IMG/VR virus record: IMGVR_UViG_3300032296_003010
Location: 1-45,573 of that record
DNA length: 45,573 bases
Direction: 5' to 3' (one strand)
DNA from: a virus
Shown here: positions 26,391 to 37,644 of the stretch, in pieces
Position numbering within the stretch: the first letter of the stretch is position 1
How the letters are laid out: the number at the start of each line of letters is the position of its first letter
The notes under the pieces: model-generated
Seen by the model: the letters and a program-made list of their open reading frames with translations, nothing else
Told to the model about the DNA's origin: nothing
Databases searched by the model: none
Position numbers and translations under genes: made by a program

Positions 26391-26897
26391 ATGTATATTA
26401 GTTTAGAATTTTGTGAGAAATACGCAGACATAGATTTTTTAACACTTTGCTTTGATAATGGAGTCGATACCCAAGAAGGTTTAAGTGTATGGGATATTTT
26501 TAATAGAAGGATTAAAGATCCCTCAGGGATATACAAAGTAGGCAAATACTACATAGATAAAGACAAGGTAACGGCTTTAACTGATTCGGTCTTGTTCAAT
26601 GCGTTACCTTTAAAGGGATTTGAGCAAGAGGTACTAGCCTTAATTAACTTGCGAGGCAGGGATTACAGGCAGGCTTTAGAGGGTTTGTGGTCTCGCATTA
26701 TTGATAACAACTTATTAAAGTTACCTAAGATAGATTTTGAACAAAGAATTAAAAACGCAAGAGCAAGAGACCGAGATAAAAATAAAAAGCCCTGCAAAGC
26801 TGGGGGGCAAGCAGGGCAGTTAGGTTATATGCTTTTCTTTTACCCGATGGGGTTTAAGGTTTGGTTAATAACTCCAAGTGGCATAATCTGGTCTTAA
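26391..26897 (+). CDS. Hypothetical protein, 168 aa, right after a terminator hairpin
   Basis: Not recognised. Residues 1-75 (SLEFCEKYADIDFLTLCFDN, VWDIFNRRIKDPSGIYKVGK, DKDKVTALTD) could be a helix-turn-helix with a wing. The segment RGRDYRQALEGLWSRIIDNN and a very basic KNARARDRDKNKKPCK follow. There is no Shine-Dalgarno and the ATG abuts a T-run. The last ~40 codons cover a minus-strand terminator and the end of the opposing peptidase gene, so the true C-terminus may be less conserved. Likely a small DNA-binding protein, with low certainty. Confidence 0.5.
   Translation: MYISLEFCEKYADIDFLTLCFDNGVDTQEGLSVWDIFNRRIKDPSGIYKVGKYYIDKDKVTALTDSVLFNALPLKGFEQEVLALINLRGRDYRQALEGLWSRIIDNNLLKLPKIDFEQRIKNARARDRDKNKKPCKAGGQAGQLGYMLFFYPMGFKVWLITPSGIIWS
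26778..26817 (-). terminator. Minus-strand terminator after the M15 peptidase gene
   Basis: On the minus strand GCCCTGC (plus 26811-26817) pairs with GCAGGGC (plus 26789-26795) across 15 nt, followed by TTTTTATTTTT. It lies inside the plus-strand ORF 26391-26897 and would end the long leftward transcript. Confidence 0.8.
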
Positions 26898-27281
26898 ATC
26901 TAAGTGAATAAATTTTGCTTTAGGGTTTATAGCTCTACCGCCTTTTTTAAAAGTAGCATTAATAAAAGCATAGACTTCTGCAAGGGGAACGCCTACCACG
27001 TAAAAATCAACAGCTAAACCCGTAGTGTGCTGGCTTCCACCTTTGCGACCTTGTTTAATTTCCCACGCAGTGGGTCTATAGCCACTGGTGATAATTACGG
27101 GCTTATTATAATAGTCTCTAACTATTTGGATGGCAGTAGCGGTTCTAGTTAAATTCCTGTCTACTTCTATGCTCCATGCCTGCTCAATGAATGGCAGGAT
27201 TTCACGCATAGTCACAGTCGGAGTAAAAAGCAATTCATAGAGGCTTATGTTAGGTGTTATTTGGCGGTTTAAAATCGGCAT
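26865..27281 (-). CDS. M15-family peptidoglycan peptidase (endolysin type)
   Basis: 138 aa. The zinc site of D-Ala-D-Ala carboxypeptidase/M15A proteins is present: SGYR (66-69), SQHTTGLAVDF with H85 and D92, and FIHLDLR with H126. This family cuts the peptide stems of peptidoglycan. There is no signal peptide, so it would need a holin or act from the virion. It is the last gene of the leftward block and lies next to a DUF1353 gene, a common pairing in phage lysis regions. The ribosome site (AAGGGG) is far from the ATG. A GH24 lysozyme is encoded separately at 36215-36661. Confidence 0.85.
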   Translation of the reverse strand: MPILNRQITPNISLYELLFTPTVTMREILPFIEQAWSIEVDRNLTRTATAIQIVRDYYNKPVIITSGYRPTAWEIKQGRKGGSQHTTGLAVDFYVVGVPLAEVYAFINATFKKGGRAINPKAKFIHLDLRPDYATWSY

Positions 27282-27484: not shown

Positions 27485-27880
27485 TTATTTCCACTTAGGA
27501 TATTTCTTTCTGCAATAAGAACTAACAGCTAAAAACATTAACTGTCTTTTCCAAAAAGGAACGCCAGCTAATTTAAGCATTTCTCTAAAAACAGAATGAG
27601 CATAAGACTGTTTGCTGGTTTGAGTTAAGCAGTGCCAATCATGGACTATAGAAGCTAAAACAAAAGGCTTATGCGAAGGCTCTCCAACGATAGGCTGTAT
27701 CCATTTAGGAATACTTGCAAAATCTGATTCAGTGCCTTTGAAAACTAATTCTCTTACGGTGCCTTGATCTAGTTGAATTTCTAATTCAATAGGCTTTAAA
27801 GTCCTGACTCTAAACGGGTCATAGCCTGAGATTTCTAAATCTTTTTCTAAATCAAAATGGCTAATTTTCAGTATCTTCAT
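27485..27880 (-). CDS. DUF1353 family protein
   Basis: 131 aa from the ATG at 27880, chosen over an upstream TTG because GAGGAG precedes it by 7 nt. The DUF1353 hallmarks are present: SDFASIPKWIQPIVG, then ASIVHDWHC with the conserved His-Asp, and a helical C-terminus. The family is widespread in phages near lysis genes; its biochemical function is unknown. The start lies within the upstream small gene, so the two are translated together. Confidence 0.8.
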   Translation of the reverse strand: MKILKISHFDLEKDLEISGYDPFRVRTLKPIELEIQLDQGTVRELVFKGTESDFASIPKWIQPIVGEPSHKPFVLASIVHDWHCLTQTSKQSYAHSVFREMLKLAGVPFWKRQLMFLAVSSYCRKKYPKWK

Positions 27881-27956
27881 TAAAAGGCTCCTCAAGAGCT
27901 TTTAAAAGAGATTCAATAAAAGCCCATAGTCGATTTAAAAAGTTCACTGCTGACAT
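27861..27956 (-). CDS. Small protein, 31 aa
   Basis: ATG at 27956 behind AGGAGAAA, reading MSAVNFLNRLWAFIESLLKA and an acidic tail. It overlaps the DUF1353 start and contains that gene's ribosome site. It has an amphipathic helix and no Cys. Too short to place; it may be a leader for coupling or a membrane-active peptide. Confidence 0.5.
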   Translation of the reverse strand: MSAVNFLNRLWAFIESLLKALEEPFNEDTEN

Positions 27957-28072: not shown

Positions 28073-28516
28073 TTAATCTGATAGCCATTCACCTGTCCGA
28101 GCTTTATGTAAATAATTCTCAGCTTTTTTTAACTCTAAATTAACGTCATCTTTTAAGCCGAGTCTACCTAAGTGTTTCAACGCAAAGCTTACCCATAGAG
28201 CTTTCTGAAAGTCATTAGTAGCCTTAAAGCAATTTTCTGCTATCGCCTCTTGCACTTCATCTAGTTTAAAAGGCAATGAGGTATAGTGATCTGGTCTAAA
28301 GTTAGATACTTCTGGTTTTTCGATTTCAAGCTCGGCAATGAAACTTTTAACAGATTCATCGTTTAAGTAAACAGATGGACGTTCTGGAAACTCGAGATAA
28401 CAAAATTTATAGACAGGTATCCCCTTCGTTCCTTTCTCTGGGAACTTATCAAAAACCACAGGGGTTTTATCTTTATAAATGTAAACTTTCCCGATAACTA
28501 AATCTGCTACTTTCAT
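28073..28516 (-). CDS. Hypothetical protein, 147 aa
   Basis: Start fixed by AAAGGAG. The N-terminal ~55 residues are beta-rich with a Trp-free SH3-like feel (VADLVIGKVYIYKDKTPVVF). The C-terminal half is helical (FQKALWVSFALKHLGRLGL, VNLELKKAENYLHKA). No family is recognised. It overlaps the upstream small membrane protein by ATGA. Confidence 0.65.
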   Translation of the reverse strand: MKVADLVIGKVYIYKDKTPVVFDKFPEKGTKGIPVYKFCYLEFPERPSVYLNDESVKSFIAELEIEKPEVSNFRPDHYTSLPFKLDEVQEAIAENCFKATNDFQKALWVSFALKHLGRLGLKDDVNLELKKAENYLHKARTGEWLSD

Positions 28517-28904: not shown

Positions 28905-29409
28905 ATTGTAAATCCTCTAATTTCTCCACGTAGGTTAAATGATATTTGTTTAAATTTTCTCGAATTTCGACTAAATTGTAATTAAATTTTTGCAGCGATG
29001 CAGTATCTATAAATACGTATCGCATTTTCGCCCAACTATAAGTTACAAAAGTATATCTTTCATTGTGCCAACCCGCAATTAACTTTTCAATTCGTTCAGA
29101 TAAACCTTTGTAATTGAGAGTTAATTGCAAAATTGAGTCTTGACAAGCCTTTAATTCGTTTTTTGATGCGTCTTGCATATATTCATGCCTGATGGTCGAT
29201 AGAAAAGATTCAACAGCATCCTTACTGATTTTTTTGCTCTCGGCTCGCTCGTGAAGCTGTCTAAAAAGGAAAGGATGATACATGAGTTTTTGGTGTAGCT
29301 TGACAGGCTCTAACCAGTTATCGGAATAAAGTTTATTTTCCCTAAGTAAAGATTCGATTTCTTTTAAAATTCCTAAATTAATTACAGTGTTGTTTTTTTC
29401 AATTAGCAT
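28894..29409 (-). CDS. Hypothetical helical protein, 171 aa
   Basis: Not recognised. The protein is helical with a middle coiled-coil-like part (ACQDSILQLTLNYKGLSERI) and aromatic-rich RYTFVTYSWAKMRYVF. It starts inside the end of the methyltransferase gene (7-nt overlap) in an AAAATAAAATG context with weak ribosome binding. No motif suggests catalysis. Confidence 0.6.
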   Translation of the reverse strand: MLIEKNNTVINLGILKEIESLLRENKLYSDNWLEPVKLHQKLMYHPFLFRQLHERAESKKISKDAVESFLSTIRHEYMQDASKNELKACQDSILQLTLNYKGLSERIEKLIAGWHNERYTFVTYSWAKMRYVFIDTASLQKFNYNLVEIRENLNKYHLTYVEKLEDLQYVN

Positions 29410-29921
29410 TTTATTTTCTCCAATTCTTCAAATATTATTTTTTCTGGCAATATTCTGCTGCAGCAATAAATACTTTTAAAAGGAACTCCTGATTTTTCTT
29501 CCGCAGAACGAATATAATCAATGCGTTTATCAAAAATCATTAATTCAAATGGATTGTTTTTAAATAACTCGTATCTTTTTTTACTGTCAAAAAGCCCCGC
29601 TTCGTTTATTAACATTGCAAATGGTTTGTTTAAACTAAAAAGTCTGTCTAAAATCGGTTCTTTTAGGCTATAAGGGGGATTGCTGATAATATAATCATAC
29701 CGTTCAGGCTCGTAACCAAAGAAATCTAGTCCCTCGGTTATGTGAGAATGTATTACGTTAAACCCTTCGAGCTGTAAAACTTTAACATAATTACTTTCAA
29801 CTAAATCAAATGGACACCAAACAGTAGAATTTGGTTTTAAATATTTTAAAATCGGATAAATTGCGTATACCTTTGTGTAGTATTCGTCTTGTTTTTTAAA
29901 ACTATATTGATGGTTAGTCAT
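29403..29921 (-). CDS. DNA adenine methyltransferase-like protein
   Basis: 172 aa from the ATG at 29921, which overlaps the previous stop (ATGA) and has GGGAG 8 nt upstream. It carries the N6-adenine methyltransferase motif NPPY (81-84, in YIISNPPYSLKEP). A cofactor-site segment appears earlier (TVWCPFDLVESNYVKVL). It is short for a stand-alone enzyme, and no target-recognition domain is seen. It could modify phage DNA against restriction or be a degenerate relative. Confidence 0.75.
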   Translation of the reverse strand: MTNHQYSFKKQDEYYTKVYAIYPILKYLKPNSTVWCPFDLVESNYVKVLQLEGFNVIHSHITEGLDFFGYEPERYDYIISNPPYSLKEPILDRLFSLNKPFAMLINEAGLFDSKKRYELFKNNPFELMIFDKRIDYIRSAEEKSGVPFKSIYCCSRILPEKIIFEELEKIKC

Positions 29922-30100
29922 TTCATTTTCTCCCATATAGTAGCTTTCATTACTCTTAAGACCTTTACTATTTCGCCCTTGTCATTAACGCAAATCTCGT
30001 GATCTTCTATGTTATCTATTGTTATTCCAAGAGTTTCTAATAAATGTTGATTTGCTGCATTTCTTTGATGTAGCATTTCATTAACTATTTCATTAATCAT
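29918..30100 (-). CDS. Small hypothetical protein, 60 aa
   Basis: A mixed helix-beta protein (MLHQRNAANQHLLETLGI, then a beta hairpin VNDKGEIVKVLRV) behind GGAGAAAATAAAATG. It overlaps both neighbours by 4 nt. It may work with the methyltransferase, but no family is recognised. Confidence 0.6.
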   Translation of the reverse strand: MINEIVNEMLHQRNAANQHLLETLGITIDNIEDHEICVNDKGEIVKVLRVMKATIWEKMK

Positions 30101-31317: not shown

Positions 31318-31496
31318 TATTCTACTTCGCTGGCGGCTGGTTCAGCTTGCTCAGCTGGCTCAAAATCTTCAAAATCATACTCATAATTTGCTTTACCCTC
31401 ATTAAAAATAGCTATAGCTTCTTCTTCTGATTCTCCTTCAACAATTGCATATTGAGTCGTTATGGTGTGTCCGTCTATCTCTACTCTGTATTTCAT
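31317..31496 (-). CDS. Small acidic protein, 59 aa
   Basis: Read directly from the gap. The ATG at 31496 overlaps the metalloprotease stop (ATGA) and has GGAGG 6 nt upstream. The product is very acidic (EGESEEEAIAIFNEG, YDFEDFEPAEQAEPAA). Highly acidic small phage proteins often mimic DNA or inhibit host enzymes; that is only a suggestion here. Confidence 0.65.
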   Translation of the reverse strand: MKYRVEIDGHTITTQYAIVEGESEEEAIAIFNEGKANYEYDFEDFEPAEQAEPAASEVE

Positions 31497-32461
31497 TCAA
31501 TCCTCCAATTAAAACTCGTATCCTGCCCGTTTGTTAGAGTTAAAATCCCTTCTGTACTTGGATTAACAGTAAACTTAACTCTCTTACCATTCAAAAATAA
31601 AGGCTCTGTAATGTCCTTGATCTGCGAATCCTCTAGTCTCCATACCCCGTGTGTATCTCTATCGTAGTCCCCAATCGGTACAAGCATAACTCTGTAGTTA
31701 TCAGGCGGTAATTCAATTTCAAAATTTCCGTCTCCATCTCCTAGAATATCCACTATAGTAGAAAATCTTTGGCTTAAAACTCTCCAAGTGGGTTTAAACG
31801 TCTTAGTCTGAGAAATAAAGATTAAGTTAGCACCTTTAAGGGGTAGTCCATTAATCGTGATAGTTCCTTTGACCCTAGCCTTTTGGACTACTTGACCCGA
31901 TACTCTTCTGAAATCCCAGTCATCTACTGGTGTAAAGCTAGTCGAGCCATAAGCCATGATTCCACAAGCCGCTATATTCCCATAATCATATTCTTGAGTT
32001 CTTCTCCAAATACCCTGAAACTTAATCCATCTGTAATTACAGTCTTCATGCCCTAGCCCATCTAGGTGTCCGTCCTCGTGAATTAAAACTTTGCTAGAAT
32101 CACCTGATAGCACTATGCCACTAGAATAAGTTTGAGTTCTACTTAAAATATCTATAGCTGATTCACCAGCGAAATAGGCATAGCCTGAAATTCCACTAAC
32201 ATTAGTTATCTTTTTAAAGACTCTTTTACCTTCTTGGTAGTTCTCTGTTATGTTTTCTTGAGTGATTAAAGCTTGTGGCTTATAAGTCAAGATGTGATCT
32301 ATAAACTCGTTCCTAGTTCCTAGCAGGAAGTCTTGATCTAGAACATAACTATTAGACGTAGTCTTTGCATAAAGCCCTGTTAGGTACTCTAGCTTATTAG
32401 CCGCTTGAGCTTGATTAAGCCCTACTGCAAGTAAGCTAGTTAGTATTGTTATTTTTTTCAT
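31493..32461 (-). CDS. Secreted metzincin-like zinc metalloprotease
   Basis: 322 aa. A type I signal peptide (residues 1-20, MKKITILTSLLAVG and AQA cleavage) directs export. The full metzincin zinc motif HEDGHLDGLGH is at 128-138 (H128, E129, H132, H138), followed at 169 by a Met-turn in GIMAYG. The catalytic domain is compact. Residues about 197-275 (VKGTITINGLPLKGANLIF, then GDGNFEIELPPDNYRV) look like a transthyretin/carboxypeptidase-regulatory-like beta domain. Such a protease in a phage early block is unusual; it may act on the host envelope, exported defence proteins or other cells. Translation is coupled at both ends. Confidence 0.85.
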   Translation of the reverse strand: MKKITILTSLLAVGLNQAQAANKLEYLTGLYAKTTSNSYVLDQDFLLGTRNEFIDHILTYKPQALITQENITENYQEGKRVFKKITNVSGISGYAYFAGESAIDILSRTQTYSSGIVLSGDSSKVLIHEDGHLDGLGHEDCNYRWIKFQGIWRRTQEYDYGNIAACGIMAYGSTSFTPVDDWDFRRVSGQVVQKARVKGTITINGLPLKGANLIFISQTKTFKPTWRVLSQRFSTIVDILGDGDGNFEIELPPDNYRVMLVPIGDYDRDTHGVWRLEDSQIKDITEPLFLNGKRVKFTVNPSTEGILTLTNGQDTSFNWRIE

Positions 32462-32559
32462 AGATTTAATTCCTTGCTGATATGTTCAATGTAAGATTCT
32501 CTTTTTTTCTTTTTAAAACAAGAGAAATATTTTTTAATTAAGTTGATTATTTTTCTCAT
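32458..32559 (-). CDS. Small basic protein, 33 aa
   Basis: Read from the gap before the metalloprotease. The ATG at 32559 overlaps the previous stop (ATGA) and its TGA overlaps the metalloprotease ATG. Reads MRKIINLIKKYFSCFKKKKR and a short polar tail. The amphipathic basic helix could bind membrane or nucleic acid. Confidence 0.55.
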   Translation of the reverse strand: MRKIINLIKKYFSCFKKKKRESYIEHISKELNL

Positions 32560-36914: not shown

Positions 36915-37315
36915 GCCATCACCTCATCAAATTTCTTTTTAAGCTCTTCTGGGTAGTTTTCGTGACACCATAGAAATTCATGGAATCCCGTGCAGGTTTC
37001 TACTGTTCTATGGTTTAATCCAGTGCATCTCAATAGCCCATCTCCAGCGGCGGGAAATCTTTTCCAGATTACACCATCTATTAAAGGCAAGCACGCCTCT
37101 AAAGCAGCTTTTGGGATTAGTGGAATCCAAGAATCTTTAATGTGTTGATTAACTTCTGATCGAAATACCTCTATGCAGAAATGTTCTTTTTCAATATATT
37201 CAGGTTTTTTAAGCCTAGTAAGCTCTTCAATAAACCGATCACAAACCGAACTAAAATCATAGCCCAATTCAAGAATCTTTTTAGATTCCTCGTAACTGCA
37301 ATTAAGCTCTAGCAT
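36911..37315 (-). CDS. Hypothetical Cys/His-rich protein, 134 aa
   Basis: Begins MLELNCSYEESKKILELGYD. A later segment, LLRCTGLNHRTVETCTGFHE and FLWCHEN, is rich in Cys and His and may bind metal. Not recognised. It overlaps both neighbours by 1-4 nt. Confidence 0.6.
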   Translation of the reverse strand: MLELNCSYEESKKILELGYDFSSVCDRFIEELTRLKKPEYIEKEHFCIEVFRSEVNQHIKDSWIPLIPKAALEACLPLIDGVIWKRFPAAGDGLLRCTGLNHRTVETCTGFHEFLWCHENYPEELKKKFDEVMA

Positions 37316-37644
37316 TATCTAACCCTCCTGATACCAGTCTCAGCGAGTAAAGGCTCGTTATAATAAGGGTCACGTATACCTGAATGAAAAGTATGGCTAG
37401 CTATTTGAGTTTTCTTGCTTTGAGCTTCGCTTTTTTTCATTGCTTTAATTTCAGCTTTCGCATCCCTTACAAGTGTCTTAGCTTCCTTGTAATTAGACTT
37501 AGCAGTCTTCAGGTTGTAATCAGATTCCCTTAAATACTGTTCCTTGATTGCTAGTTGTGTTTCTTTAATATATATGTTTGGTAGATCAGTTGCTAGTGCA
37601 GCTTGACCTATTAATATTAATGATAGTAGTATTGTTTTTTTCAT
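37315..37644 (-). CDS. Exported coiled-coil protein, 109 aa
   Basis: The ATG at 37644 is chosen because AAAAAGGA lies upstream and a signal peptide starts there (MKKTILLSLILIGQAALA, no lipobox). The mature part is charged and helical (KTAKSNYKEAKTLVRDAKAE) with a polar tail. It probably acts in the periplasm; a spanin-like or envelope role is possible. The frame also extends upstream through the overlapping 59-aa gene; that part is a shadow. Confidence 0.68.
   Translation of the reverse strand: MKKTILLSLILIGQAALATDLPNIYIKETQLAIKEQYLRESDYNLKTAKSNYKEAKTLVRDAKAEIKAMKKSEAQSKKTQIASHTFHSGIRDPYYNEPLLAETGIRRVR

Follow-up and report, generated by a model that had tools for sequence, protein, structure and literature searches.

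Astacins (M12A), such as bacterial myroilysin (PDB 5ZJK, 5CZW, 5GWD) and crayfish astacin, carry a glutamate after the third zinc-binding histidine which contacts the N-terminus of the mature enzyme (PMC9848320, PMC9629494). A secreted metzincin of phage origin is known from Listeria, where Mtz (LMRG_00713) cleaves a TIMP-like lipoprotein and where its expression with Tim sensitizes the cell to phage lysis (PMC8235301). The window, i.e., the whole stretch of 45,573 nucleotides analysed here, corresponds to a virus record of IMG/VR that lacks end repeats, and encodes a putative exported metzincin (Table 1). It resembles the published description of Mtz as a secreted metzincin linked to a phage element, and differs from it in that Mtz is Gram-positive, has a TIMP-like lipoprotein partner and carries the Met-turn AIMLD. 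No TIMP-like partner was found adjacent to the window gene; the neighbours are small and leaderless by scan, and the other leadered gene is located about 5 kb away. The preliminary description held that phages rarely encode exported zinc proteases, which is too strong in view of Mtz (PMC8235301) and of a second viral metzincin family, reprolysin-like, that a motif scan found on 32 viral contigs (L019-L050). A leader is present in the complete members of that family that were read, one member scanned was above the Pfam Reprolysin_3 and Reprolysin_4 cut-offs, ribonucleotide reductase genes were present on both contigs inspected, and two members searched had no relatives in INPHARED. The family is like the window protease in being virus-encoded, metzincin and leadered, and unlike it in its HExGHxxGLAHGPEN...DLMSYG context and much longer N-terminal part; the profile match between the two covers the motif surroundings only (67%) and is biased by motif-based selection.

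Table 1. Features of the protease gene and of its surroundings in the window.
Feature	Position	Strand	Evidence
Metzincin-like protease gene, 322 aa	31493..32461	-	ORF; relatives L001, L014, L015
33-aa ORF upstream, overlapping the protease start by ATGA	32458..32559	-	sequence
Downstream ORF, 59 aa, acidic, sharing ATGA with the protease stop; kept in L001	31317..31496	-	
Sec-type leader MKKITILTSLLAVGLNQAQA, residues 1-20	32402..32461	-	hydropathy and AxA site; absent in L014/L015
Conserved mature N-terminus ANKLEYLTGLYA, residues 21-32	32366..32401	-	four-member alignment
Zinc motif HEDGHLDGLGH (residues 128-138), with E129 as the presumed general base	32048..32080	-	conserved in L014/L015
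Glu139, invariant, immediately C-terminal to the third His; corresponds in position to the family-specific Glu of astacins	32045..32047	-	alignment; PMC9848320
Cys141, restricted to leadered forms	32039..32041	-	alignment
Cys166, presumed disulfide partner of Cys141	31964..31966	-	alignment
Met-turn IMAY, residues 168-171; Tyr171 at Met+2	31949..31960	-	sequence, alignment
Predicted C-terminal beta-rich domain (residues 195-322), with the conserved stretch THGxWxLxDSQIKDxTEPLFL	31496..31879	-	Foldseek matches of weak model; alignment
GH24 lysozyme; myovirus counterpart 45% identity	36215..36736	-	tblastn
DUF1353 gene, common to the myovirus	27485..27895	-	tblastn
Gene without known function, common to the myovirus	28073..28516	-	tblastn
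Second leadered protein, 109 aa, coiled-coil-like; kept in L001	37315..37644	-	leader scan
M15 peptidase, end of leftward block	26865..27281	-	

The protease ORF starts with an ATG preceded by an AAGGAA ribosome-binding sequence. Three relatives, all from IMG/VR, emerged when 2.9 million viral contigs were scanned at the protein level and with DNA patterns. L001 (76% identity) is a sibling phage with a terminase 100% identical to that of the window, and the two contigs L014 and L015 (42%) both come from a single type of unrelated myovirus, which has baseplate genes. No relatives were found among INPHARED phages, PLSDB plasmids, or GTDB genome contigs within the sensitivity used. The same enzyme, lacking both the export tag and the cysteine pair considered below, is present in an unrelated virus, which marks the gene as genuine and, for a phage, rather unusual. 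Among all open frames of the window with 40 aa or more the pattern HExxHxxGxx[HD] occurs once, in the protease, and HExxHxxGxxH arises in only 2 of 1,000,000 composition-preserving shuffles of the protease sequence. The myovirus proteins retain it, and the L001 motif is one residue shorter. The Met-turn methionine follows 31 residues past the third histidine, within IMAY or FMAY across the family, and is followed by a tyrosine at Met+2; a glutamate stands directly after the third zinc histidine in four of four aligned members. An active-site mechanism of metzincin type is likely. Several claims of the preliminary description thus hold, namely an exact zinc motif, unique in these frames and kept at 42% identity, an IMAY Met-turn, a predicted signal peptide (peak 11-residue hydropathy 2.16 in the leader vs. 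1.45 in the rest of the protease, with an AxA site ahead of ANK), and a gene embedded among tiny genes by overlapping starts and stops, as seen from the ATGA on either side.

The family resembles the astacins in three respects. First, HExxHxxGxxH is followed by glutamate. Second, a tyrosine is found two residues past the Met-turn methionine. Third, the mature N-terminus is conserved. The best single-sequence PDB match of the window protease is also an astacin, myroilysin, which the catalytic half matched with E=0.015 over 74 residues extending well upstream of the motif. On the other hand EXXRXDRD is missing and the phage proteins read HEDCNYRWIK or HEDNAYRWIN, SIMHY is replaced by GIMAY or GFMAY so that only M-x-Y is kept throughout, a pro-segment is lacking, a C-terminal beta-rich domain is added and the Pfam astacin model is unmatched; the first three differences rule out full astacin membership. 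A profile-profile match (93.6%) to astacin-like viral proteins was set aside as circular, as these sequences had been selected by the same motif pattern. Reprolysins have an aspartate after the third histidine, unlike the phage family with its glutamate and its tyrosine at Met+2. Among Pfam models, those for reprolysin-like peptidases (M12B; Reprolysin_2/3/5) matched the catalytic half of L014 best, with alignments of up to 102 residues. Full reprolysin membership was ruled out, as the best M12B score was 15.0 bits against a curated cut-off of 27.

The remaining profile searches point in the same general direction without reaching significance for any Pfam or NCBIfam family model or any PDB chain. 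The full-length window protein had no peptidase match in Pfam and nothing in PHROGs or NCBIfam. Its catalytic half matched only M66 and Reprolysin_3, and that of L014 matched Reprolysin_5, M10, M57, Reprolysin_3, and Reprolysin_2, in each case below cut-off; all Pfam models matched by the isolated halves are metallopeptidases, sub-threshold, as are those matched by full-length L014. In the PDB a profile of the catalytic half found trimerelysin II, a reprolysin, at E=0.78, the L014 catalytic half alone found no match, and the full-length family profile gave a single unrelated and non-significant one. AlphaFold2 models from 2 and 4 sequences had pLDDT of 28 and 36, and when the weak model was searched against PDB folds, the matches listed were mostly beta-sandwiches, with no metzincin among them, and are uninformative on the catalytic domain. 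The leadered metzincin proposed in the preliminary description is thus supported by the motif, the relatives and weak but consistent profile matches, while structure gives no proof of it. The transthyretin-like C-terminal domain proposed there is weakly supported, since Pfam gave no match to this domain and Foldseek of the low-confidence model gave CnaB and other beta-sandwiches with E of at least 0.0065. From these comparisons we infer a zinc endopeptidase of metzincin type that carries an additional beta-rich domain at its C-terminus and represents a small new family.

Cleavage of the leader is predicted between MKKITILTSLLAVGLNQAQA and ANK. A simple scan of the window for leader-like starts gave three frames, of which the protease and the 109-aa protein were counted as genuine and the third is an internal start within a virion-block ORF. 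From ANK onward the leadered and the leaderless proteins align, and the mature N-terminus follows a strikingly conserved pattern, ANK..YLTG.YA. Across the four members 9 of 12 positions are invariant in residues 21-32 as compared to 16 of 94 in residues 33-126; nine or more invariant positions were obtained in none of 100,000 random draws, and no other 12-residue stretch in residues 33-126 exceeds six. In exported proteins a conserved extreme N-terminus is unusual, and it is expected from a structural role. The myovirus proteins begin at Met-ANK, from an ATG behind AAGGA with an in-frame stop four codons upstream, and hence no leader has been overlooked. In all four members the leader or the methionine immediately precedes ANK. 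Both leadered proteins have exactly two cysteines, which flank the active site, and the leaderless proteins have none. This is as expected if the leadered forms fold in an oxidising compartment, although the leader/cysteine pattern comes from two lineages and could be a coincidence.

A mode of action can be proposed for such a protein. The Sec leader would carry the protease out of the cytoplasm, presumably to a Gram-negative periplasm, and cleavage at AQA|ANK would leave alanine as residue 1. It is an attractive hypothesis, by analogy with mature astacins, that this N-terminus folds inward to pair with Glu139, next to the third zinc histidine, so that leader removal by itself would complete the active enzyme. 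Zinc would be held by His128, His132, and His138, with water activated by Glu129, Met169 in the Met-turn and Tyr171 as a candidate fifth ligand, and a Cys141-Cys166 disulfide would brace the active site in the oxidising compartment. In the myovirus the same mature start would arise by methionine removal, without leader or cysteines. The substrates would be host envelope proteins, cut during the lytic cycle and most likely so as to weaken the envelope for lysis. An exported metzincin-type protease that is completed by its N-terminus and cuts the host envelope in the lytic cycle is the best explanation as a whole, and it is a tentative one, with a probability of about 0.45. A more general statement, that this is a family with a buried N-terminus and no pro-segment, in which either signal peptidase or methionine aminopeptidase produces the N-terminal ANK and thereby activates the enzyme in two different compartments, with a disulfide only in the exported form, is considered doubtful.

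That the myovirus copy lacks a leader speaks against an obligatory target in the envelope. It is conceivable that the protease originally served host takeover or counter-defence in the cytoplasm, as in the myovirus, and was later sent outward by a leader in the window lineage. The myovirus gene, with its good ribosome-binding sequence at Met-ANK and its product free of leader and cysteines, fits such an origin, as does its position in a rightward gene run, where it immediately follows a small HTH gene. Two lineages do not fix the direction of change, however, and the task of the exported forms would be left unexplained; we regard this history as quite unlikely.

Comparison with the sibling phage shows an abrupt change within the gene. 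Identity amounts to 54% over residues 21-135, where synonymous change is saturated, rises to 94% over residues 136-322, and reaches 100% over residues 136-197 (dN 0.007, dS 0.70); for the surroundings of the third histidine and the Met-turn this is taken as strong purifying selection on the sequence. The junction is located inside the zinc motif, where L001 is one codon short (HEWGHGYLGHED) and the motif reads HEWGHGYLGH. Exchange of the front half is the simplest reading. The sibling protease (L001 5944-6948(+)), with its exchanged front half and shortened motif, also has a longer hydrophobic leader. As a strict metzincin should not tolerate a motif one residue short, activity is perhaps dispensable in L001, and this, with a metzincin fold that AlphaFold2 did not confirm, is what one would expect if the family consisted of pseudo-enzymes or binding proteins whose zinc site is decaying. 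Such a loss is very unlikely for the family, given the motif kept intact at 42% identity and the purifying selection near the third histidine and Met-turn, and the constraint on the remaining sequence argues that the L001 protease was active until recently. The divergent front half also resembles the result of diversifying pressure, as might act on an exported protease, equipped with leader and cysteine pair, that trims host receptors or surface proteins and thereby blocks adsorption of other phages. Mosaicism is, however, general in the leftward block, expression before lysis is without support, and the leaderless myovirus homologue would stay off the surface until lysis, which makes superinfection exclusion or surface remodelling unlikely. 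The window protein itself is a real, leadered, metzincin-like protease, probably active, and belongs to a small family new among phages.

The genomic setting bears on its role. A rightward block carries the terminase and an SU10-type portal, and a leftward block a DnaB/DUF3987 helicase, RecT, a RuvC-like resolvase, the protease, the GH24 lysozyme, DUF1353, and the M15 peptidase. Since the lysozyme belongs to the same leftward run, the position of the protease gene gives no early date, and the early or middle expression proposed in the preliminary description is not supported, lysozyme and M15 peptidase sharing this run. Promoter and terminator scans were uninformative, with fewer promoter-like sites than in shuffles. 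An ORF at 29403-29936(-) has a weak match, below cut-off, to adenine-specific DNA methyltransferases. Comparison of the window phage with the myovirus by tblastn shows only four genes in common, the protease, the lysozyme, DUF1353 and one of unknown function; the protease does not adjoin the lysozyme in either phage. This co-occurrence suggests a common host and a small pool of envelope- or lysis-linked genes, and it is from co-occurrence that the link of the protease to lysis is drawn. A Gram-negative host is assumed, as the portal and baseplate matches are mostly to proteobacterial phages. Upstream of the lysozyme both phages encode a leadered coiled-coil-like protein of about 110 aa (window 37315-37644(-), L059 6631-6963(-)); these are similar in layout and gave no BLASTP alignment with each other, and they are possible lysis partners.

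Many secreted bacterial metzincins degrade extracellular proteins, and lysis would put leadered and leaderless forms outside the cell alike. The protease could accordingly be an extracellular weapon or a moron, whose release at lysis would let it digest matrix, competitors or eukaryotic proteins. No partner for outer-membrane secretion and, among the scanned window ORFs, no lysogeny gene was recognised, nor did a similar toxin turn up, so that this is improbable. A late, envelope-linked role fits the common gene set slightly better than do surface remodelling, a superinfection block or an attack on neighbours, the functions considered in the preliminary description, and our guess as to the biological role leans to late envelope proteolysis.

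For the role proposed here Listeria Mtz is a useful precedent. If late proteolysis of the host envelope is correct, the protease would be another one among the enzymes that phages send into the host envelope. The leadered form with cysteines and the leaderless form with none would make a clean natural pair for the redirection of a protease between compartments, and the family would lend itself to a simple test of metzincin activation by loss of the leader alone.
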